This document shows positions 553 to 16,246 of a stretch of DNA of 64,000 nucleotides, in pieces. The DNA is taken from contig SVLV01000001.1 in NCBI GenBank assembly GCA_015067765.1, positions 1 to 64,000 of the forward strand, in the 5' to 3' direction. A program made the translations under genes and the position numbers. The notes under the pieces were generated by a model. The model had not been told where the DNA came from and did not search any database. It saw only the letters and a program-made list of their open reading frames with translations. Numbering within the stretch: the first letter of the stretch is position 1; every line of letters begins with the position of its first letter. The stretch is from Oscillospiraceae bacterium (GTDB lineage Bacteria > Bacillota > Clostridia > Oscillospirales > Oscillospiraceae).

Positions 553-3023
553 GGACTGGTGATGCCCAGATTTGTACGTGCCGCTGCCGCCGTGGTTGCA
601 CCCGTACCGCCATAGGACAACGCCAGCGCGGTTTCCAGAGTGATTTCCTCAAAATCCTGTCTGTCATATGCCAGCTTCACCGCATAGGCATTTGCCGCCA
701 CCGTGGTACTGGTAGAGGTCACGCTGGAGGACAGCTTGGTCAGACCGTAATAAGTGGTGGTGGCGGTGGACTTACTGATCAGTTCCCAATAGGAGCCGTT
801 ATAGACGAAGAGAACAACCTCGCCGCTCCTCCACATATAGGTACTTGCCGCCGTGGACCCATACTGCTTGATGGCAATGGCTCCCGTACCGTTTACATTC
901 AGCGTGGGGGATGCACCCGAATTGTAATAGGTGAACTTGACAGCGATGGTAGCACCAGTCTCCAACACAAAGCCGGAGCAAGTTACTACCTTGGCCACCG
1001 TTGCCGCCGCCGTTGCACAAGTTCCATAGTAGAACGGAGGGTTGCCAAAATCATAATCGATTTGGTCCGGGGTCAGCGTACCTTCAATCCTCACATCACC
1101 CACGATATGACCGTCACCCACAACATGGAGCGCGGCATCCGGTGTAGGGGTGTTGATACCCACCATCTTCTTTCGCAACGCCACCAGGGGCGTACCCTGC
1201 GGGACGGTGAAATAAAGGCTGAGTGCCGACAGCGAACTCAGCTGATCCCGAATGTACAGGTGGAAATCGTAGGACGAATTGGCATCCAGACTACACAATT
1301 CCAGGTTGGAGAACGAGAAGCTGGTGCCATTTTGCGTAACAGACGATGTGATGTTTGTATACGCACCATCCAGAATGAAGTTGATGATACTGAGGATGAT
1401 TTCCGGCAATGCCGCAATCAGCACCGGGATGGCGGCAAGCAGACCGTCAGCCAGGCCGGTAATCAGCTGGAGAGCGGCATCCAAAATCATAGGCAGGCTG
1501 TTGATGAGGCTCTGCACGATGGTGATGATTGCCTGGATCGCCGCCGGGATGAGGGTCGGCAGAGCCGAGGCAATGCCCTGTACCAGGGACATTACAATCT
1601 GAATGGCGGCTTCTACCAACAGGGGCAGATTTTCAATCACAGTATTGACGATGGTGAGGACTGCCTCAATGACCACGGGAATCAGCTGCGGCAACAGAGT
1701 CAGCAGCGTGTTCAGCACCTGGGAGAACAGGTCCACAACGGTCTCCAGGAGTGTCGGCAGTAGTTCTACCACCGTCTCAAGCAGAGCATTCAGCGCTGTT
1801 GGGAGCGCCGATATGATGTTCTCTATCACCGGGGTAATATTGGTCAGCACATCCTGGAAGGCATCGACCACATTGTTGCAGAGTTGCTCGATGTCGGCAT
1901 CGGCATTACCGAAACCAACCACCAGGTTGCTCACCGCCGCCTTCATGGCATTCATGGAGCCTTCGATGGTATGCTCGGCTTCTGCCGCCGTGGCTCCGGC
2001 AACACCCATACTCTCCTGGATGACGTGGATAGCGGAAACCACATCGGCATAGGAACTGATATCGTACTCAATGCCGGAAATCGCCTGGGCATCTGCAAGC
2101 AGACGCTCCATTTCCGTCTTGGTACCGCCGTAACCCAGTTTGAGGTTATCCAACATGGTGTAGTTCTGCTTGGCAAAGCCCTGGTATGCGTTTTGGATGA
2201 GACCAATGTCGGTGCCCATCTTATTGGCATTATCCGCCATGTCGGTGATTGCCATATCCGCATATTTGACCGCCGCCTCCGTATCGCCGCCCAAAGAGGA
2301 AATCAGCGATGCGGAGAAGGATGTGACCGTGGACATATAGTCATTGGCGGACATACCGGCCGTTTTATAGGCGTTGTTGGCGTATTCCTGCATAGCCGCA
2401 GAGGAGTCTTTGAACAGGGTGTCGATACCGCCGACCAACTGCTCATACTCTCCGTATGCCTCGACTACTGCTTTGCCCAGGGAAACAGCTGCGGCAGCGG
2501 CGGCGGTGACCACCGCGCCCATCGCCACACCCACACCCTTCAGAACAGATCCCAGTTTGGAGAACTTTCCTTCGGAATCCTCTGCGGCATCGGCGGCATC
2601 GTCCAGGTCATCTGCCATCTCATCGGCAGAATCGCCTGTATCGTCCATTTCCTTGCCCAGCTTGTCCATGGCCTCTTCGTTATCGGCCAGTTCACGCTCC
2701 ATGCCGTTCAGGGCGGCTTGGGCGTTATTCAGCTGAATCTGCCACGCCTGGGTCCGGCGGTCATTTTCGCCAAAGGTCTCGGCGGCATTCTGCATGGCTT
2801 GGCGGAGCATCTCCACCTTTTTCTTCTGTGCCTCGACCTGTTCAGCCAAGACCTTATGTCTGGCGGCCAGGGCTTCGGCAGAATCGTCGCTCTTGGAGAA
2901 TTGGGACTCCACCAGCTTCATTTCCGAGCCGAGGACTTTGAAAGACTGGTTGATATCAGCCAGGGCCTTCTTAAATTCCTTCTCGCCCTCAAGACCGATT
3001 TTTAAGCCAAAAGTATCTGCCAT
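303..3023 (-). CDS. Tape measure protein fused to tail fibre, inverted and running antisense into the tail gene
   Basis: The 906-codon frame starts at ATG 3021-3023. Residues 1 to about 552 are a tape measure protein: a charged coiled-coil N-terminus (KEFKKALADINQSFK), an Ala-rich helix, then long hydrophobic Leu/Ile/Pro repeats. At about base 1366 the sequence changes abruptly to tail-fibre sequence (VGINTPTPDAALHVVG, SYGGTGATTAAAARTNLGI) that runs to about base 559. The last 85 or so codons (558-303) are only the antisense of the major tail gene. The C-terminal part of the tape measure and the distal-tail and tail-lysin genes expected between tape measure and fibre are missing, which suggests a large in-frame deletion. 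This copy is very unlikely to build a functional tail. Confidence 0.75.
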   Translation of the reverse strand: MADTFGLKIGLEGEKEFKKALADINQSFKVLGSEMKLVESQFSKSDDSAEALAARHKVLAEQVEAQKKKVEMLRQAMQNAAETFGENDRRTQAWQIQLNNAQAALNGMERELADNEEAMDKLGKEMDDTGDSADEMADDLDDAADAAEDSEGKFSKLGSVLKGVGVAMGAVVTAAAAAAVSLGKAVVEAYGEYEQLVGGIDTLFKDSSAAMQEYANNAYKTAGMSANDYMSTVTSFSASLISSLGGDTEAAVKYADMAITDMADNANKMGTDIGLIQNAYQGFAKQNYTMLDNLKLGYGGTKTEMERLLADAQAISGIEYDISSYADVVSAIHVIQESMGVAGATAAEAEHTIEGSMNAMKAAVSNLVVGFGNADADIEQLCNNVVDAFQDVLTNITPVIENIISALPTALNALLETVVELLPTLLETVVDLFSQVLNTLLTLLPQLIPVVIEAVLTIVNTVIENLPLLVEAAIQIVMSLVQGIASALPTLIPAAIQAIITIVQSLINSLPMILDAALQLITGLADGLLAAIPVLIAALPEIILSIINFILDGAYTNITSSVTQNGTSFSFSNLELCSLDANSSYDFHLYIRDQLSSLSALSLYFTVPQGTPLVALRKKMVGINTPTPDAALHVVGDGHIVGDVRIEGTLTPDQIDYDFGNPPFYYGTCATAAATVAKVVTCSGFVLETGATIAVKFTYYNSGASPTLNVNGTGAIAIKQYGSTAASTYMWRSGEVVLFVYNGSYWELISKSTATTTYYGLTKLSSSVTSTSTTVAANAYAVKLAYDRQDFEEITLETALALSYGGTGATTAAAARTNLGITSPYSVVVVVKEGSYTSLYQLVMVSALTVASPSVTSAFQGCVPLASGLFRRRMVPSMVGVEKVMLSPLVARAVAGMPNLTRYSQK

Positions 3024-3624
3024 TTAACCACCGCCTTTCATCAGATTCCCTCCGGGATGATGTCATCAATGAATCGTTCCCGCTTGGGTTTGGAAATGCC
3101 AGAATACTGTTTGTGACACTCCCAAAGGTCCAGGAGTAGGCCAAATGGCATAAGCCACACCTCATCCTGTGTCAGATGGAGGTGGGCCAAGCCATAATAA
3201 AGCAGCCGGGTAAACAGTTCTTCGTCTGTTACTCGGCTGCTACTGCGTTTTTTGTGTCTGCCTCACTCTCAATGTTGCGCTTGGTGCCTGCAAGCAGAGC
3301 TTCCATAATGGCAGATTTGTAAGTTGCCAGGTCTGCGGGGACGGTCAGAAGTTCCACCATCTCCTCGGTGAGCAGTTCCTTGGGGGCATCCTTATGCTTG
3401 AGGTTGTGGATAAGGATGGACTGATTGGCCAGAAGGGTGATGAGCCAAACGACCTCACCGATAGCCATCTCGAAATTCTCGGATTTCATAAGGCTATCGC
3501 CCAGGTTCTCCAGACCGCCGTAACGGCCGGCGACCTCCTTGGTAGCCTTGGTGGTCAGCAGAAGGGTGTATTCCTCACCGCCGACGGTGATAACAGATGC
3601 GCGATCTTTCATCATAGGTCAGTC
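554..3624. repeat. Inverted 3.07-kb tail-gene segment bounded by 5-bp inverted repeats
   Basis: The tail genes at 559-3615 lie on the minus strand while their neighbours at 1-552 and 3618-5852 lie on the plus strand. The segment is bounded by GACTG at 554-558 and its reverse complement CAGTC at 3620-3624. Flipping it in silico joins the fibre codons for NLGITS (minus strand) directly in frame to RTSLYSGTL (from 3624 on the plus strand). It also places AAGGACTGACCT before the chaperone ATG, giving it the ribosome site it now lacks. I see no longer inverted repeat typical of a site-specific invertase at the ends. The event could be a genuine microhomology-mediated inversion or an assembly error. 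Confidence 0.75.
3041..3615 (-). CDS. Tail assembly chaperone gpG / gpGT with -1 frameshift site
   Basis: The zero-frame product (3615-3229, 128 aa, starts MMKDRASVITVGGE) has the size and position of the siphovirus tail chaperone G, directly before the tape measure. Near its end the sense strand reads A AAA AAC at 3253-3247 with the codon phasing (ACA AAA AAC) of a canonical -1 slippery heptamer. Shifting -1 there opens a frame of about 65 codons (TDEELFTRLLYYGLAHLHL ... DDIIPEGI) that stops at 3041, 18 bases before the tape measure ATG. This is the classic gpG/gpGT arrangement. The gene lacks a ribosome site in its present orientation; the inversion separated it from AAGGA at 551-555. Confidence 0.75.
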
Positions 3625-6392: not shown

Positions 6393-6613
6393 ATGATGCG
6401 ATTATTTCCTTCCGTGCTGCCATGGCGGTGGCTTGGGGAATGCTCCAGGAGGGCATCATCAGCGAAGAAGAGTATTGTCAAATAGAGGCTATTATTGCCA
6501 GTAAAAAGGGTGTAGATTTGTCAACTTTATGTTGCAGAAATCCCTTGATATTCCGGGGGTTTAGAGCGAATATGTCACTACCAAACAGCAAAGGAGGTGG
6601 CATAAATGCCTAG
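6389..6613 (+). CDS. Small SHOCT-like protein before recombinase
   Basis: This 74-residue protein starts within the stop of the preceding gene and overlaps the recombinase start by 8 bases. The segment LQEGIISEEEYCQIEAIIASK resembles a SHOCT (short C-terminal) motif, a small amphipathic interaction helix pair. Small proteins with this motif commonly sit directly upstream of clostridial serine recombinases; their function is not known to me. The C-terminal tail after residue 45 looks unstructured. Confidence 0.55.
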   Translation: MNDAIISFRAAMAVAWGMLQEGIISEEEYCQIEAIIASKKGVDLSTLCCRNPLIFRGFRANMSLPNSKGGGINA

Positions 6614-8330
6614 AATTATTCGGAAAGTGGATGCTATCGCGCCCATCGCGCCCTCGCTAAAGAAGGTCGCTGCCTACGCCAGAGTTTCCTCCGGCAAGGA
6701 TGCAATGCTCCACTCATTATCCGCCCAGGTCAGTTACTACAATGACTACATCCAACAGCAGCCCGGCTGGGTGTTCGCCGGAGTGTACGCAGACGAGGCG
6801 CTAACCGGCACCAAGGAAACACGCGCCGACTTTCAGCGGCTCATTGGCGACTGCCGCCAGGGCAAGGTCCATGAGCAGTTTACCAGCTATGAGGCACAGG
6901 TGGATTATTACACCCAGTACATTTTGAGAAATCCCCAGTTTGAATTTGTGAAGGTATACACCGACGAGGGTATTTCCGGTACCAATACAAGAAAGCGAGA
7001 CGGCTTTAATGAGATGATCAGCGATGCCCTGGCCGGCAAAATCGACATCATTATTACCAAGTCCGTGAGCCGCTTCGCACGAAATACGGTGGACAGCCTG
7101 GTGACCATCCGACAGCTGAAAGAAAAAGGTGTAGAGGTTTTCTTTGAAAAGGAGAACATTTACACCTTTGACAGCAAAGGCGAGCTGCTACTGACAATTA
7201 TGTCCAGCCTTGCCCAGGAAGAGAGCCGGAGCATTTCCGAAAATGTCACCTGGGGCCGGAGAAAGCAGTTTGCAGACGGCAAGGTATGCTTGCCCTACGG
7301 ACGGTTCCTCGGCTACGAAAAAGGGCCGGACGGCTTGCCTCGGATTGTACCGGAACAGGCAAAGACTGTCGTGCTGATTTTCGATTTGTTTATGGCAGGG
7401 CTGACACCCGGCGCCATTGCCAAGCGGCTGACCGCAGACGGCATCCCTACACCTTCCGGCGGCACGAATTGGCAGGCATCCACAATTAAGAGCATTCTTT
7501 CCAACGAGAAGTACAAGGGCGACGCCCTCCTGCAGAAGGAGTTTACTGTGGATTTCCTGCAAAAAAAGAAGAAAACCAACGAGGGCGAGGTCCCCCAATA
7601 CTATGTTGAGGGCAGCCACCCAGCAATCATCGCACCGTCCCTGTTCGACCGGGTCCAGAGGGAAATTCAGCGAAGGAAGGCCCTGGGGCATCATTACAAC
7701 AGCAAGAGCGTTCTGGCATCACGGATTGTATGCGGCGACTGCGGCAGCTTCTACGGCTCCAAGGTCTGGAATTCCAACAGCAAGTACCGCCGGGTTATTT
7801 GGCAATGCAACAGCAAATTCCAGGGCGATAAATGCTCGACACCCCACTTGGACGAGCAGGACATCTATGGGCGCTTTTTGACCGCTTACAACGCCCTCCT
7901 TGGGGACAGGGACGCCCTTTGCGAGGACTGCCGCATCATGCAAGCAATGCTGACGGACACCTCGGCTGTTGATGCCGACTTGGAGGCGCTGCGTAGCGAA
8001 CTGGAGGTTGTGGTTGGGTTGACCAGGAAGTGCATTTCCGAAAATACTGTGGCGGCGCAGGATCAGACCGAATACGAAGCCAAGTACAACGCCCTGGCTG
8101 CACGGTACAATGACATCATTGCCCAAATCCAAGCTGCGGAACAACGCCGGGAAGAACGGCTGGATAAGGCAAAGCGAATCGAAACCTACATGGAGCAGAT
8201 TCGGAGTCAGTCCGGTGAACTGACGGTCTTTGATCCCCGGCTTTGGCTTGAGGTGATTGATGTTGCCACTGTCTACCATGACGGACGGATTGTATTCCGG
8301 TTCCTGGACGGCAGGGAGATTGAAGCATAA
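6606..8330 (+). CDS. Large serine recombinase, apparent fusion of two recombinase genes
   Basis: The 574-residue protein starts at ATG 6606 after AAGGAGG. Residues 1 to about 87 are the start of a resolvase domain with catalytic Ser28 (AYARVSS) up to DEALTGTKETRADFQRLIGDCRQGK. At about base 6870 it switches to another recombinase at EQFTSYEAQVDYYTQYI and repeats the same structural part (YTDEGISGTNTRKRDGF, then the SRFARN arginine motif). A Recombinase domain, a zinc ribbon (CGDCGSFYGSK ... CNSKFQGDKC) and a coiled coil follow. The second half lacks its own RVS catalytic serine. I infer that an in-frame deletion fused two tandem genes; the normal catalytic fold may be disturbed. Large serine recombinases integrate or excise mobile DNA. 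Confidence 0.85.
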   Translation: MPRIIRKVDAIAPIAPSLKKVAAYARVSSGKDAMLHSLSAQVSYYNDYIQQQPGWVFAGVYADEALTGTKETRADFQRLIGDCRQGKVHEQFTSYEAQVDYYTQYILRNPQFEFVKVYTDEGISGTNTRKRDGFNEMISDALAGKIDIIITKSVSRFARNTVDSLVTIRQLKEKGVEVFFEKENIYTFDSKGELLLTIMSSLAQEESRSISENVTWGRRKQFADGKVCLPYGRFLGYEKGPDGLPRIVPEQAKTVVLIFDLFMAGLTPGAIAKRLTADGIPTPSGGTNWQASTIKSILSNEKYKGDALLQKEFTVDFLQKKKKTNEGEVPQYYVEGSHPAIIAPSLFDRVQREIQRRKALGHHYNSKSVLASRIVCGDCGSFYGSKVWNSNSKYRRVIWQCNSKFQGDKCSTPHLDEQDIYGRFLTAYNALLGDRDALCEDCRIMQAMLTDTSAVDADLEALRSELEVVVGLTRKCISENTVAAQDQTEYEAKYNALAARYNDIIAQIQAAEQRREERLDKAKRIETYMEQIRSQSGELTVFDPRLWLEVIDVATVYHDGRIVFRFLDGREIEA

Positions 8331-8453: not shown

Positions 8454-8777
8454 TTACGCCAGGTTCTCTTTTTTCCTTTCGACCCTATGTGACCGCAACA
8501 TGGACAGCGCATCCTCACGGGCCCTGTCATCTGCCTCTCTTGCGGCTTGGACAAGAGCCAGTTCATAACTGCTGAGGCCGGAATCGGTGGGGGCATCATA
8601 GCCGACCAATTCATCCAAGGACACACCAAGGAATCTTGCAATCTGAGTCAATATTTCAACAGAGGGCTCCCGCACTCCGGTTTCATACCGGGAATAAACA
8701 GAGGGAATGCAGCCGATGGCTTCTGCCACCTGTTTTTGGGTAAGACCTTTATGAATTCGGATTTCTTGTATTTTCAT
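8454..8777 (-). CDS. XRE/Cro-CI family repressor
   Basis: I place the start at ATG 8777 (MKIQEIRIH) because GGAGG lies 8 bases upstream; the ATG at 8792 contains that ribosome site. About 107 residues: an N-terminal HTH_3 (GLTQKQVAEAIGCIPSVYSRYETG, SVEILTQIARFLGVSLDEL) and an acidic/basic C-terminal helix (EADDRAREDALSMLRSHRVERKK). It is divergent from a second HTH gene at 8916, and the 138-bp gap between them contains three palindromic operators. The pair looks like a CI/Cro-type switch that controls the recombinase genes. Confidence 0.8.
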   Translation of the reverse strand: MKIQEIRIHKGLTQKQVAEAIGCIPSVYSRYETGVREPSVEILTQIARFLGVSLDELVGYDAPTDSGLSSYELALVQAAREADDRAREDALSMLRSHRVERKKENLA

Positions 8778-8832
8778 AATGATATCCTCCATTCCTACAC
8801 TTATTGTAATGCCATTCCGGCAAAAAGTATAT

Positions 8833-8898
8833 TACCGTTTCGGTACTTTTCTAGTTGACAACTTACCGAGTTGGCATTATACTAGTACCGAATCGGTA
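8833..8898. promoter_or_regulatory. Divergent control region with three TACCG-N3-CGGTA operators and a consensus promoter
   Basis: Three sites occur: TACCGTTTCGGTA (8833-8845, perfect), TACCGAGTTGGCA (8864-8876, imperfect) and TACCGAATCGGTA (8886-8898, perfect). A consensus promoter for the rightward genes, TTGACA (8855-8860), 17-bp spacer, TATACT (8878-8883), has the second operator inside its spacer and the third just after its -10 box. Binding there should block transcription of the HTH gene at 8916 and the recombinase at 9231. The first operator is closer to the leftward repressor gene and may serve autoregulation. Confidence 0.75.
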
Positions 8899-8915
8899 AT
8901 CAGGAGGTGGTTCAA

Positions 8916-9146
8916 TTGAATAGGTTACGAGTCGCCAGGGAGAGCCGGGGCCTTTCTCAAAAGGAACTGGGCGAGGCGACGGGATTAACCGCTACAACAA
9001 TCAGCAGGTACGAAACGGGAAAAAGAAAACTGACCGTGGAGATGGCACAGCAACTGGCAACCGTCCTGGATATGGACTGGGTTTGCTTGTTTGAGCCGCC
9101 GGACGCAAGAGTACCGCTCGATTCAAGCGAAGGAGGTAAACTGTGA
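8916..9146 (+). CDS. XRE-family regulator (Cro-like partner)
   Basis: The best start is TTG 8916, eight bases after AGGAGG (8902-8907); the GTG at 8907 overlaps that site. The protein of about 76 residues is almost only an HTH domain (LRVARESRGLSQKELGEATGLTATTISRYETGKRKL) plus a short acidic tail. It is transcribed from the TTGACA/TATACT promoter towards the second recombinase. Size and position suggest the Cro counterpart of the repressor at 8454-8777. Confidence 0.75.
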   Translation: MNRLRVARESRGLSQKELGEATGLTATTISRYETGKRKLTVEMAQQLATVLDMDWVCLFEPPDARVPLDSSEGGKL

Positions 9147-9230: not shown

Positions 9231-11039
9231 ATGATAAGTAACGGAAATGGCACCTCCACGCCGAATCGAACATTCATCCCGGCAAAGCCGAAGATTGACA
9301 TTTATGGGGCCGAGCGTGTTTTTCGTGTTTGTGCTTACTGCCGTGTGTCGACGGATAACGATGCACAGTTATCTTCCTTTGAGTTGCAGCAGGCTCACTA
9401 CCAACAGCTGATGGGAACGCACCCCAACTGGGATCTGCGGATGATTTACGCAGACGAAGGTATATCCGGCACCTCGCTAAAGAAGCGCGATGATTTTAAC
9501 CGGATGATTGCCGCCTGTGAGCGCGGTGAATACGATTTGATTGTCACGAAAAGTGTGTCCCGTTTTGCGAGAAACCTGGTCGACTGCGTTTCCCTGGTCC
9601 GCAAGCTGAAACGGCAAACGCCTCCGGTGGGTGTTTTCTTTGAAACGGACAACCTAAACACGCTGTCAGAGGACTCCGAATTGATGCTTTCCTTCCTGGC
9701 GACATTCGCCCAGGAGGAATCGGTGAAAAAGAGTGAGAGCATGGTTTGGTCCCTCCGAGAGCGGTTCAAAAACGGCAAGCTGCTCACCCCGGCACTACTG
9801 GGATATGAGCGCCCCAGGGATGCGGTTGGCAACTACATCAAATACGCACCCCTGCAAATCGTAGAATCGGAAGCGGTCATTGTCCGGTTCATTTTTGATG
9901 CCTTTCTGGCGGGTAAATCCACGAGAGAAATCGCTGAATTCCTCACCGACATAGAATGCCCCACCAAGACCGGAGGCGTTGAATGGAACGAAGGCTCCAT
10001 CAACTACATCCTGCGGAACGAGCGATACTGCGGAAGCGTGCTGACCTGGAAGACCTTTACTGCGGATTTGTACGAACATAAGCATAAGCGCAATCGGCAG
10101 GATCGTGACCAATACCTCTACACCGACCAACACGAGGCAATCGTGTCGGTAGAGACCTTTGAAGCCGCTCAAGTGCTTCTGGATAACCGGAAACATCATG
10201 TCAGAGGGCGACTTCCTACTATGCAGGTCATTGGCGACGGCATCTTCCGGGGCTATGTCCCTATCAATCACCATTGGATCAACGATGACCCCAACGCCTA
10301 CTACCAGGCATCCAACAGCGTGGACAACGGCGGTCAAGTTCGGAGGGTACGGCGTAGCCTTTTCAGCGCATTCGATTTGGAAGGCTACCAGGTGGTGCGA
10401 GGACAGTTTATGACCGCTCGGTCGGAAAGTCCCACCATCGCAGTTACCAACAACAAGATTTCCTTCAATGTGGTCTGCGCCCGGAGATTTATCGATGTGC
10501 CTTACATCCAGCTTCTGCTCCATCCTTCGGAGCGGAAGATTGCCATTCGGCCATGCAAGGAAAATGCACCCCACAGTATTCGGTGGCGACCGGACCCCGG
10601 CAAGCCCGTAATCCAAAAGACAATATCCTGCCAGCATTTCGGAAACGCCCTGTTTCAGATTATGGAGTGGAATCCGGACTACTTATATCGCATTCGTGGC
10701 ACCTGGGTGGCACGAGGCTCGGATCAGATTATTGTTTTCAATCTGTCCAATGCGGTGCCGGCTGCGTTCCTTGAGGCAGAAGCTGACGATAGTGATGCCG
10801 CCAAGAAACGGCGTGTGGATCTTTGCCCGGAGGAGTGGAACGACACCTTCGGCGAAGAGTTCTATGAATACAGCCTGCAGAACAGTTTTTATTTCCTTGC
10901 TCCAAGAACGGACTGGAAGGCACAGGCATCCAGCATAGCAGTACCTGGATTAGACCAGGTCCCCGTCCTCACGGATGCGGAACTGGAAGAAAGTATGATA
11001 AATCTACGAAAGAGAGTTGGTTCAAGACATGGAGAATAA
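9231..11039 (+). CDS. Large serine recombinase with unusual C-terminal domain
   Basis: The 602-residue protein starts at ATG 9231 after GAGGAGG. Residues about 35-185 form the resolvase domain, with YCRVSTDND carrying the catalytic Ser, DEGISGTSLKKRDDF and KSVSRFARN. The Recombinase domain (about 200-290, ending near ILRNERYCGS) is typical. Instead of the usual zinc ribbon and coiled coil, residues about 376-513 form a domain (LEGYQVVRGQF, KISFNVVCARRF, YIQLLLHP, KIAIRPC, IMEWNPDYLYRIRG) that recurs in the next three genes. A further tail (CPEEWNDTFGEEFYEY) is shared with the first of them. No zinc-ligand pairs are visible. I infer that the module replaces the DNA-recognition or control part of the enzyme. 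Confidence 0.8.
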   Translation: MISNGNGTSTPNRTFIPAKPKIDIYGAERVFRVCAYCRVSTDNDAQLSSFELQQAHYQQLMGTHPNWDLRMIYADEGISGTSLKKRDDFNRMIAACERGEYDLIVTKSVSRFARNLVDCVSLVRKLKRQTPPVGVFFETDNLNTLSEDSELMLSFLATFAQEESVKKSESMVWSLRERFKNGKLLTPALLGYERPRDAVGNYIKYAPLQIVESEAVIVRFIFDAFLAGKSTREIAEFLTDIECPTKTGGVEWNEGSINYILRNERYCGSVLTWKTFTADLYEHKHKRNRQDRDQYLYTDQHEAIVSVETFEAAQVLLDNRKHHVRGRLPTMQVIGDGIFRGYVPINHHWINDDPNAYYQASNSVDNGGQVRRVRRSLFSAFDLEGYQVVRGQFMTARSESPTIAVTNNKISFNVVCARRFIDVPYIQLLLHPSERKIAIRPCKENAPHSIRWRPDPGKPVIQKTISCQHFGNALFQIMEWNPDYLYRIRGTWVARGSDQIIVFNLSNAVPAAFLEAEADDSDAAKKRRVDLCPEEWNDTFGEEFYEYSLQNSFYFLAPRTDWKAQASSIAVPGLDQVPVLTDAELEESMINLRKRVGSRHGE

Positions 11040-11631
11040 TCAGTTAGATTTCCTGTTCAACAACAGCGTTCCCGTTACCGGAGCGCCGGAGGAAGAGCAG
11101 GAGGTCGTTGACCTGGCGGGCTACCAGGTCACCAAGGCAGAGCTTTTTTCGCATACAAAGGAGCCCGCAATCACCGTATGGCAGACACGCATTAAGTTCA
11201 ATATGGCCTGTCTGCGGAAGTTCCCCGGCGTGAAGTACATTCAGATTTTGATTCACCCTGATCAGCGGAGGCTGATTATCCGCCCCTGTGACCCGGACAC
11301 ACCGGACTCGCTGCGGTGGGCGAATGGTGGCGGCGAAAAGGAACTGAAAAACAGAGACCTTCTGTGTAAGGTGTTCGCTGCCAAGATTTTCGACCTTATG
11401 GGTTGGAATGAAGAATACCGCTACAAGGTGCTGGGCAAGCCTGTCACCTGCGACGGTGAGGTGCTGTTCCTTTTCCAGCTGTCCGATTTTGAACTGTTCG
11501 TATCCGGCAAGGGTCGGAAATCCTATCTGCCTTCCGACTGGAGAGACTACTTTGGCACTCCGGTGGAAAAGCATGATGAGGCATACAAAATCGACCTGGC
11601 GGATGGTTACATCACCACTAATAATGTGTAA
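11029..11631 (+). CDS. Paralogue 1 of the recombinase C-terminal domain
   Basis: The start at ATG 11029 overlaps the recombinase end by 11 bases, so the genes are translationally coupled. About 200 residues. After an acidic leader the body aligns along its whole length with the C-terminus of the preceding recombinase: LAGYQVTKAELF, RIKFNMACLRKF, YIQILIHPDQRRLIIRPC, LMGWNEEYRYKVLGKPV, then LPSDWRDYFG matching CPEEWNDTFG. No catalytic motif is obvious. I do not recognise the family; an accessory DNA-binding or partner subunit is inferred from paralogy and position only. Confidence 0.7.
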   Translation: MENNQLDFLFNNSVPVTGAPEEEQEVVDLAGYQVTKAELFSHTKEPAITVWQTRIKFNMACLRKFPGVKYIQILIHPDQRRLIIRPCDPDTPDSLRWANGGGEKELKNRDLLCKVFAAKIFDLMGWNEEYRYKVLGKPVTCDGEVLFLFQLSDFELFVSGKGRKSYLPSDWRDYFGTPVEKHDEAYKIDLADGYITTNNV

Positions 11632-11643
11632 GGAGGAAGCGCA

Positions 11644-12096
11644 ATGTCACTCTATGACGGCGGAGCAAGCGAAATCAGCTTGAATGGCTTTCAGATTGTC
11701 CGTGGGCAGATGTTCAACCGACAATCTGAGCCTGCCATGACGATGTGGTATAGTTCGGCATCGTTCAATACTGCGTGTTACAGCGCCCTTAATGACTGCA
11801 CCTGTATTCAGATGCTGGTCAACAGCGAAGAAAAGAAAATCATCATCCGTCCTTGCCCCTCCAAGGACAAGGATGCGGTGACCTGGCTGACAGCAGGAGA
11901 TAAGGTCAAGTACAAGAAAATCGAATGCTCCCGGCTGACCCATCAGCTGTTCGACCTTTGGGGGCTGAAAAAGGACCTCCGGTATCGTGCCAGCGGAAAG
12001 CTGGTCATTTCCGATCAGAAGGTCATGCTGATGTTCGATTTCGCAAACTGTGAAATATGGCGGGGACAGAAAATGGTGAATAGCATTGAAATATGA
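11644..12096 (+). CDS. Paralogue 2 of the recombinase C-terminal domain
   Basis: This 150-residue protein starts at ATG 11644, 12 bases after the previous stop, with AAGGAGG. It keeps the conserved blocks: LNGFQIVRGQMF (compare LEGYQVVRGQF), SFNTACYSAL, CIQMLVNSEEKKIIIRPC, LFDLWGLKKDLRYRASGKLV and VMLMFDFANCEIW. It lacks the extra C-terminal tail seen in paralogue 1. The function is unknown. Its end overlaps the start of paralogue 3 by 11 bases. Confidence 0.7.
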   Translation: MSLYDGGASEISLNGFQIVRGQMFNRQSEPAMTMWYSSASFNTACYSALNDCTCIQMLVNSEEKKIIIRPCPSKDKDAVTWLTAGDKVKYKKIECSRLTHQLFDLWGLKKDLRYRASGKLVISDQKVMLMFDFANCEIWRGQKMVNSIEI

Positions 12097-12454
12097 TACT
12101 ACTATATCCTTCAATTTGAGGGATGGAAAATTGCATATCAACATGGATGCAATTCGCGCTTTGGATCAGCCAAATTTTCTGCGATTTCTGTTAAATGCTG
12201 ATGGGTCCTCCATGATAATGGAGCCCTATCACAAATTGGAGTTCCAGTCAATCCGTGTCCCCAAGGATATCGACCGGAACTTACGCAGGTGCCGGTTCCG
12301 GTGTGCCAAGCTGTGCAGGCTCTTTACCTATGCCCTTAACTGGGACCCACAGATGACATACCGCATCCCCGGAAAAATCATCCCTGCACAGAAAATCGTG
12401 GTGTTTGACATGACCCAGGCAAAAATAATATACGGCTCGGATTCTATGAATTGA
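12086..12454 (+). CDS. Paralogue 3, shortened copy of the same domain
   Basis: This gene of 122 codons starts within the end of the preceding gene. It is more diverged but keeps ISFNLRDGKLHINMDAIRAL, LRFLLNADGSSMIMEPY, FTYALNWDPQMTYRIPGKII and IVVFDMTQAKII in the same order and spacing as paralogues 1 and 2. The N-terminal GYQVVRGQ strand is missing. It is probably the third product of tandem duplication in the same operon; function unknown. Confidence 0.65.
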   Translation: MKYDTTISFNLRDGKLHINMDAIRALDQPNFLRFLLNADGSSMIMEPYHKLEFQSIRVPKDIDRNLRRCRFRCAKLCRLFTYALNWDPQMTYRIPGKIIPAQKIVVFDMTQAKIIYGSDSMN

Positions 12455-12466
12455 GGTGTTATTTTT

Positions 12467-13228
12467 ATGATTTATATAACTGGCGATACGCACGGCGATT
12501 TCTCCCGATTTAGTGTGGAGGCATTTCCAGAGCAGAAGAACATGACCAAGGATGATTATGTTATCATCTGCGGTGATTTCGGCGGTGTTTGGAGCGATGA
12601 TGAGCGTGATGAGGAAACCCTGGATTCCCTTGCCCAGCTGCCCTTTACTATCCTGTTTGTCGCCGGAAACCACGAAAACTACGATGCCTTGGTCAGCTAT
12701 CCGGTGGATGTATGGAATGGTGGCAAGGTACAGTTCATTCGGCCCAATGTAATCCACCTTATGCGTGGCCAAGTTTATAACATCGCAGGCAAGACCTTCT
12801 TTGCCATGGGCGGCGCAGCGAGTCATGATATCAGCGACGGCATTTTAGAGCCGGACGATCCTGACTTTGAGGTGAAATACTGGATGCTCCGCCGATCCCG
12901 TGCAATGTTCCGTGTCAACCATTTTTCCTGGTGGAAAGAGGAGATGCCTTCCGACCTGGAATATGAAGAGGCCCGGCAGACCCTGGATGCATACAACTGG
13001 AAGGTCAACTACATCATTACTCATTGCGGACCCAACAGCGTAATCGACATTTTGAGCAGGGGTTTTTATGACCATGACCGTCTGACTGACTTCCTGGAAA
13101 CCGTCCTGCAGAAAACCGAATACGACCAATGGTTCTTTGGGCATTACCATGACAACCGTCAGATTGGACAGCACATTCTTCTGTATGAGCAGATTATCCC
13201 TTTGGAATGGGGTGAGGCAAATGCGTAA
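12467..13228 (+). CDS. Calcineurin-like metallophosphoesterase
   Basis: The 253-residue protein carries the family motifs in order: GDTHGDF (first metal ligands), GDFGGVW, GNHENYD, ITHCGPNS and GHYHDNR. These are the dinuclear metal ligands of PPP/MPE enzymes, which hydrolyse phosphomono- or diesters. It is soluble, with no signal peptide. It follows paralogue 3 by 12 bases and overlaps the next gene, so it belongs to the recombinase operon. Members of this group occur in phages and integrative elements as phosphatases of unknown substrate; nucleic acid or protein substrates are both possible. Confidence 0.85.
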   Translation: MIYITGDTHGDFSRFSVEAFPEQKNMTKDDYVIICGDFGGVWSDDERDEETLDSLAQLPFTILFVAGNHENYDALVSYPVDVWNGGKVQFIRPNVIHLMRGQVYNIAGKTFFAMGGAASHDISDGILEPDDPDFEVKYWMLRRSRAMFRVNHFSWWKEEMPSDLEYEEARQTLDAYNWKVNYIITHCGPNSVIDILSRGFYDHDRLTDFLETVLQKTEYDQWFFGHYHDNRQIGQHILLYEQIIPLEWGEANA

Positions 13229-14120: not shown

Positions 14121-14150
14121 GGTCGCATCAGAAATTATGATGCGACCTCT
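14121..14150 (+). terminator. Terminator closing the recombinase operon
   Basis: The perfect 10-bp stem GGTCGCATCA / TGATGCGACC with a 7-base loop is followed by TCTGTTCTTGTT. Confidence 0.8.
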
Positions 14151-15908: not shown

Positions 15909-15925
15909 TAGATCGGCCGAGTGGC

Positions 15926-15996
15926 GGGGTGCAAAGTCATAAAGGGATGCACCCCAGGATGATGCCAATGCACCCCATTTGCACCCCCTGGGGTGC
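15926..15996. repeat. Cluster of GCACCCC motifs in both orientations
   Basis: GCACCCC occurs at 15949-15955, 15970-15976 and 15981-15987, and its complement GGGGTGC at 15926-15932 and 15990-15996. The outer pair extends to GGGGTGCAAA (15926-15935) and TTTGCACCCC (15978-15987). The last two copies form the near-palindrome GCACCCCCTGGGGTGC. The same heptamer makes the stem of the terminator at 16031. The cluster lies at the junction of accessory and core DNA; it may be a protein-binding array or an attachment-site remnant. Confidence 0.6.
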
Positions 15997-16030
15997 GTTC
16001 TATCAAAGTTGAGCATTATTCCCAAAAAAG

Positions 16031-16222: not shown

Positions 16223-16246
16223 CCCTATCCAATGGAGGATGATACT

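Follow-up and report, generated by a model that had tools for sequence, protein, structure and literature searches.

A large serine recombinase with an unnamed C-terminal domain and stand-alone relatives of that domain: a possible heteromeric integrase of Clostridia prophages

A 64,000-nucleotide stretch of an Oscillospiraceae genome (GenBank assembly GCA_015067765.1, contig SVLV01000001.1, positions 1 to 64,000, forward strand; here, the window) carries part of a prophage resembling Candidatus (Ca.) Heliusvirales phages, and within it an operon of four genes is the subject of this report. The first gene encodes a large serine recombinase (LSR), designated LSR*, which has an unnamed C-terminal domain where a zinc ribbon would usually be. 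The following three genes, A, B, and C, encode stand-alone relatives of that domain. Serine integrases are usually described as single-protein machines that work with an unrelated directionality factor. We put at about 0.5 the probability that this operon serves integration and excision, with A, B, and C as subunits of a serine integrase that is heteromeric.

Results

LSR* is a protein of 602 amino acids (aa) encoded on the plus strand at positions 9231 to 11039. Pfam searches matched a resolvase catalytic domain (PF00239, 1.1e-25) and, after it, the Recombinase domain (RD; PF07508, 5.4e-24), and the catalytic motifs YCRVS, DEGISGT, and SRFAR are all present. By these domains and active-site motifs, LSR* is a large serine recombinase. 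The Pfam search did not find the PF13408 zinc ribbon in LSR*, and the same search found it in the neighboring recombinase at 6606 to 8330. A CxxC pair anywhere after the linker that follows RD occurs in 2 of 142 LSR* open reading frames (ORFs), while the linker itself is conserved (consensus VIxDGxLKGFVxINPRW in 18 sequences). Judged by the missing cysteine-pair zinc ribbon after RD, LSR* is not of the zinc-ribbon (LI/phiC31) type. The region instead holds a copy of the unnamed domain, here called R (10371 to 10757, plus strand), which matches a profile hidden Markov model (HMM) of the domain with an independent E value (iE) of 4e-47. A preliminary description of this DNA had proposed that an unnamed domain replaces the zinc ribbon of LSR*, and the Pfam and CxxC results uphold that proposal.

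The stand-alone genes lie downstream on the same strand. Gene A (11029 to 11631; 200 aa; iE 4.4e-48) has relatives in phage records and in viral and genome contigs; gene B (11644 to 12096; 150 aa; iE 2.9e-43) belongs to an Oscillospiraceae branch; and gene C (12086 to 12454; 122 aa; TTG start) encodes a shorter, divergent protein, matched with an iE of 2.5e-28 by the domain HMM, which has C among its seeds. The genes overlap or nearly touch, as had been described: LSR* and A overlap by 11 bp, B and C also by 11 bp, and the gap of 12 bp between A and B comes with a GGAGG before B.

Relatedness among the four copies was assessed by Smith-Waterman alignment of all six pairs, with 1000 residue shuffles per pair. 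Scores were 263 for R-A (best shuffle, 53), 224 for A-B (57), and 174 for R-B (50); the pairs with C scored 70 (R-C; best shuffle, 48), 62 (A-C; 48), and 56 (B-C; 51). The observed score was never reached by a shuffle in any pair, and artefact or chance similarity was rejected on that basis. Used as a single query against its own genome, A recovered LSR* (E = 9e-28) along with B (E = 1e-23). It did not recover C, which joins the family by profiles (hhalign of A against C: probability 98.7, E = 4e-16, 114 columns). Thus, the proposal that the C-terminal domain of LSR* recurs in three stand-alone genes is borne out by the six alignments and, for C, by profiles. The further claim that all four share the same ordered blocks holds for LSR*, A, and B and fails for C, in which the G(Y/F)Q(V/I)xRG block is missing, INMDA stands in place of FNxxC, and EPY stands in place of RPC. 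Similarly, the block W(N/G)xxxxYRxxGK had been proposed for all four, and LSR* departs from it by reading YRIRGT where YRxxGK was expected. A and LSR* also have in common a tail, P-x-(E/D)W-x3-FG.

That the domain has no named family was confirmed by profile searches. R, A, B, and C gave no accepted match in Pfam, NCBIfam, or PHROGs; phage relatives of the domain gave no accepted family in Pfam or PHROGs, and solo relatives gave none in Pfam or NCBIfam. Profiles of A, of C, and of one solo protein found no significant relative among Protein Data Bank (PDB) sequences. Weak matches to partial_CstF (0.01), DUF6128 (0.17), HYLS1_C (0.013), SLS1 KH (0.057), and CusF (0.13) were rejected as below cutoffs or not significant, and a known family with an unrelated role was therefore not accepted from any of these four sources. 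No paper on the domain was found in the open-access PubMed Central literature, a search outside which preprints and most subscription papers lie.

Next, linkage of the domain to the recombinase was counted. The R domain served as the query because searching with A would bias the count. Of the 158 stretches it matched, 96 could be confirmed, and the best 80 of these were retained; 4 of the 80 had no room downstream and were left out. A stand-alone copy lies downstream of LSR* in all 76 loci that have at least 500 bp there, and two or more copies are present in 69 of the 71 loci with at least 1300 bp (the other two, L298 and L305, have one copy each despite the room). Since the 76 loci form 51 clusters at 90% R-domain identity, they are not 76 independent events.

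This linkage bears on an alternative in which A, B, and/or C are only recombination directionality factors (RDFs), small proteins permitting recombination of attL with attR: LSR* would integrate alone, and the stand-alone domains would bind R to switch it to excision. The alternative would explain why all copies share a domain with the LSR C terminus, and the operon follows two divergent regulators, a position that would suit a switch gene. Passages of PMC3783163 describe the zinc-type integrases as requiring a separate RDF for excision (attL x attR), and a passage of PMC5311408 counts seven published RDFs as of 2017. A stand-alone copy nevertheless follows LSR* in every one of the 76 loci with room, and A, which overlaps LSR* in the window, would be made whenever the integrase is made, a poor design for an excision-only factor; moreover, a single task would require three different copies. 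We treat A, B, and C as no more than RDF candidates and judge the alternative rather unlikely.

The module is found well beyond the window. Scans with A covered the best 80 of 151 genome loci and 69 viral loci. A-like genes occur in 23 phage records, 20 of them listed, and in one Subdoligranulum plasmid record; all five records that were opened (four A-like matches and PV036443) bear the label Ca. Heliusvirales. The LSR*-A-C set, to which one branch adds B, is found repeatedly in Ca. Heliusvirales-like prophages and in other Clostridia elements, and two layouts dominate. In the window-type branch the order is LSR*-A-B-C, and zinc-ribbon LSRs frequently lie upstream; in the second branch, LSR*-A-C is followed by two further genes, P4 and P5, often with convergent zinc-ribbon LSRs. 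P5 matches DUF6551 in Pfam and is ParB-like by PHROG. Across 161 loci, one of them the window, the domain HMM detected 507 copies. Under the labelling rule used, the gene order was R-A-C in 75 loci, R-A-B-C in 46, and otherwise in 40; the last are, as far as they were examined, fragments, split forms, contig ends, and mislabelled copies. P4 (a weak helix-turn-helix match, unnamed) and P5 are conserved in the operon (L004, 7439 to 9318), and neither was seen in the window's branch. The plasmid record (L221, 6384 to 7031) has a resolvase-N-like protein ahead of LSR* in which the usual active-site motif is missing by eye, possibly a catalytically dead partner.

Genome samples were also searched with the R profile. 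Among 291 genomes of the class, 7 matched, and 6 of these have a match in a long ORF (573 to 731 aa) and at least one further copy; G188 was a weak match without a domain ORF on inspection and was not counted as an operon. Among 299 genomes of the phylum, 5 matched: the window's own genome, one with the operon (G072), and three with a solo ORF. The solo protein of G404 has matches in 13 of the 299 phylum-sample genomes, itself included, and the solo proteins of five other genomes are matched by the domain HMM with E values of 1e-9 to 2e-4 in a small search. These proteins form an unnamed family related to the domain, of about 102 to 111 aa, in Bacillota chromosomes (L327, 5852 to 6187; L328 to L333); in L327 the gene adjoins recD2.

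To place the copies in lines of descent, a FastTree phylogeny of 167 representative domain copies was built. The B line comprises 27 copies (support, 0.993), and the C line comprises 70 copies plus one that the labelling rule had called B (0.90). Six ORFs labelled A by rule fall with R in the tree and were relabelled by hand. According to this tree, A- and C-type genes are common to both layouts and B is confined to the window's branch. The preliminary description had called the domain amplified, which suggests a local event; local amplification was rejected, since the same set spans many distant Clostridia elements and B and C are well-supported lines of their own.

The domain is not always fused to the recombinase; in five contigs, LSR and domain are separate genes. 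In NatCom_991, the LSR (404 aa) ends just past the linker and a separate gene encodes the domain (155 aa), a layout repeated in three viral contigs. G064 has a more distant split pair, with a 354-aa LSR and a separate domain ORF. G376 has a solo copy as well, 456 bp away from an ORF of 256 aa that is LSR-like by eye. When a domain is fused to the recombinase in some genomes and encoded apart from it in others, the usual inference is that the proteins act together. The preliminary description had suggested hetero-oligomers that might set the direction or target of recombination; together with the constant linkage, these arrangements make it likely that LSR* and the domain proteins share a complex, and control of direction or target by it is hypothetical.

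The same arrangements speak to a further alternative: A, B, and C might regulate transcription or control copy number, and the DNA-binding domain that they have in common with LSR* would be a coincidence. It would accommodate the solo copies in Bacillota chromosomes, around two of which (L325 and L327) no recombinase was seen by eye among the nearby ORFs, and the ParB-like P5 that follows the operon in the second branch. Against it, the split LSR beside a separate domain gene and the constant pairing of LSR* with the domain tie the domain to recombination, and we consider this explanation improbable.

Insertion sites of relatives provided a view of the module at element edges. In G652, an island of about 20.7 kb (contig C78, about 38.2 to 58.9 kb; L351 and L352) lies between a conserved gene and ftsH, the latter assigned by eye. 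It carries an Abi_2 gene, a reverse transcriptase with a CN_hydrolase domain, helicases (PLD-helicase), and a Phd-type antitoxin, and the LSR* module adjoins this cargo upstream of ftsH. In G724, the two island-flanking genes are about 150 bp apart, and the sequence common with G652 starts at the P5 stop codon. When the island was searched by tblastn with four LSR and three Tn554-type queries, LSR* and A were the only matches. A domain scan of 10 of the 11 other island ORFs of at least 100 aa found no recombinase domain; the scan left out one ORF of 101 aa and all shorter ones. The LSR* operon is thus the only recombinase found in an island whose site is near-empty in G724.

In elements of Coprococcus, Blautia, Bilifractor, and Faecalicatena, the module runs from P5 into a cpaF-like gene (by eye), at a distance of about 0.5 kb as measured in G066 and G069. 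No zinc-ribbon LSR match was found on the contigs of these four elements. The islands in this cpaF-like pilus ATPase gene (L197 to L199, L200 to L204, L205 to L209, and L210 to L212) are of about 20 kb, with both ends seen in three. The two element ends form an inverted repeat around GC, and both islands that were read contain a gene that is restriction-like by eye.

The window contig itself starts inside the prophage. Tail genes at 1367 to 3624 are 80 to 81% identical in DNA to phage records NatCom_9287, NatCom_21982, and NatCom_11393; the label Ca. Heliusvirales comes from five sister records, not from these three, and the recombination module is common to the window and the labelled records. 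For the published family, passages of PMC9226167 give nine conserved genes. The ORF at 6606 to 8330 (plus strand) has two resolvase stretches and PF13408 in Pfam. Relative to the window, viral contig L089, which is 98% identical over A, has 1,128 extra bases at window position 6871, where it carries two zinc-ribbon LSR genes. On this comparison, the two zinc-ribbon LSRs that stand in tandem in relatives seem to have been joined in frame into the single window ORF, whether by a real deletion or by an assembly collapse, and the fusion may be an artefact.

Two regulators separate this ORF from LSR*: a divergent XRE-like repressor (8454 to 8792, minus strand; an ORF assigned by eye) and an XRE/Cro-like regulator (8907 to 9146, plus strand; Pfam HTH_3, 5e-16). 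A gene annotated as a transcriptional repressor is near LSR* in two opened relatives. Between the regulators is a putative promoter, TTGACA-17-TATACT (8855 to 8883, plus strand; 11 of 12 matches), in a region with 10 promoter-like sites compared with 5.0 (standard deviation, 2.4) in shuffles; the TACCG...CGGTA palindromes beside it are possible operators. Downstream of C is a metallophosphoesterase (12467 to 13228, plus strand; Pfam Metallophos, 6e-13; PHROG 1649, 4e-43), relatives of which are near the module in some loci. L089 aligns to position 14128 and again at 15922 to 16026, where L089 ends; the latter segment is a possible right end of the prophage. The gene at 16232, pyruvate kinase (pyk) by eye, is chromosomal. 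No empty site was found upstream of pyk, as the other matching genomes align only from about the pyk start.

Ca. Heliusvirales-like prophages were also seen repeatedly inside a comEC-like competence gene (L184 and L186 of G061; L049, L051, L061, L069, and L070). The downstream comEC half begins at the same residue in five loci, and the lysogens therefore probably lack ComEC. An empty site for a Roseburia-like locus (L073) was not found in a sample of 38 genomes, which gave, besides its own genome, only short matches.

Discussion

We propose that a Ca. Heliusvirales-like prophage uses the operon as its module for site-specific integration and excision. Catalysis and core-DNA binding, as in a serine integrase, would fall to LSR*. 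Its R domain would sit where other serine integrases have a zinc ribbon and a coiled coil, and A, B, and C would be separate subunits from the same domain family. In the zinc-type integrases, as passages of PMC3783163 have it, RD and the zinc domain bind a 25-bp half-site and the coiled coil serves synapsis. In the proposed module, LSR* and A, plus B and C, would assemble as a heteromer on the attachment site, and the stand-alone domains would recognize the outer site, act in synapsis, and decide whether the complex integrates or excises. The four domain copies (R, A, B, and C) would jointly replace the zinc domain, and the make-up of the complex would set site and direction. The analysis shows homology, constant linkage, distinct B and C lines, fused and split versions, loss of the zinc ribbon, and an island with this operon as the only recombinase found; physical contact, DNA binding, the subunit roles, and direction control are inferred. 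The odds that we give rest mainly on linkage and splitting. More tentative is the part of the proposal in which outer DNA recognition and synapsis, which other serine integrases keep in a single polypeptide, would be divided among LSR* and two or three dedicated subunits (A, B, and C), with the subunit mix setting site and direction; we hold it at somewhat less than even odds.

Several observations weigh against this interpretation. The A line is weak (11 copies at a support of 0.49, with the Subdoligranulum copy in addition). The R copies do not form one line; they fall into two supported branches, of 37 (0.916) and 18 (0.983) copies, and a separate weak pair (0.351). The branch of 18, to which the window's R belongs, clusters with A and B (0.854). 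C is missing in some relatives whose operon is otherwise complete (L060, L062, L067, and L083) and in the G652 island, and the LSR of one split contig (L223/L227) is divided between two frames. At the ftsH site, one of three relatives (G724) is near-empty; the other two, G692 and G700, hold a gene of about 500 aa in the gap, which indicates that this place is variable. Three of the four cpaF elements carry a recombinase trio that is Tn554-like by eye, and for that reason the cpaF elements were dropped as proof that LSR* is the sole integrase; in the fourth, the other cpaF half was not found. Finally, full-size prophages in comEC (by eye; L051, L057, L061, L069, and L070) carry zinc-ribbon LSRs as well as LSR*, and the G061 comEC prophage, of which both ends were seen, ends several genes from the LSR* module. 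In full-size Ca. Heliusvirales-like prophages, the integrase could be the zinc-ribbon pair.

The comEC prophages thus favor an alternative in which the zinc-ribbon LSR pair is the integrase of the window phage and LSR*-A-B-C has some other role, such as regulation, inversion, or excising a nested element. Pair and operon are close to each other in many loci. Anaerocolumna has its P5 end at a distance of 283 bp from comEC, at another point, and its zinc-ribbon pair about 3.3 kb from the other end; taken together, the comEC layouts imply that position alone does not tell which enzyme integrates. The contigs of the four cpaF elements, without a zinc-ribbon LSR, and the G652 island, where tblastn found none, argue the other way, as does the fused state of the pair in the window, 1,128 bases shorter than in L089 (possibly an assembly artefact). 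On balance, we regard this alternative as unlikely.

The proposed heteromeric integrase can be set beside known systems. Like the serine integrases of LI/A118, phiC31, and Bxb1, LSR* has a resolvase domain with its motifs followed by a Recombinase domain and is phage-borne, and in some relatives its operon is situated where an inserted element has its edge. In general, known serine integrases carry out recombination with a single polypeptide and an RDF unrelated to it; LSR*, in contrast, lacks a zinc ribbon, has the unnamed domain instead, and has two to three stand-alone relatives of that domain in its operon. The Ca. Heliusvirales zinc-ribbon pair belongs to the same phages, is encoded by neighboring genes, and has the same catalytic and Recombinase domains as LSR*, but it keeps PF13408; in the opened records its members are annotated as integrase, DNA invertase, or hypothetical. 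XisF-XisH-XisI of cyanobacterial elements, in which an LSR needs small partner proteins for DNA rearrangement, resembles the LSR* operon in that respect, yet LSR* scores far under the XisF cutoff (61.5 versus 375). CcrAB of SCCmec likewise uses more than one gene for LSR-type recombination. CcrA and CcrB are both full recombinases, whereas the partners of LSR* carry only the C-terminal domain, and LSR* is far under the Ccr cutoffs (94.2 versus 900 for CcrB).

If the proposal is correct, the operon would offer a natural system in which attachment-site recognition and directionality could be dissected subunit by subunit. It would also suggest a function for several "hypothetical" genes common to human-gut phages, and the same module is found at the edge of a defense island.

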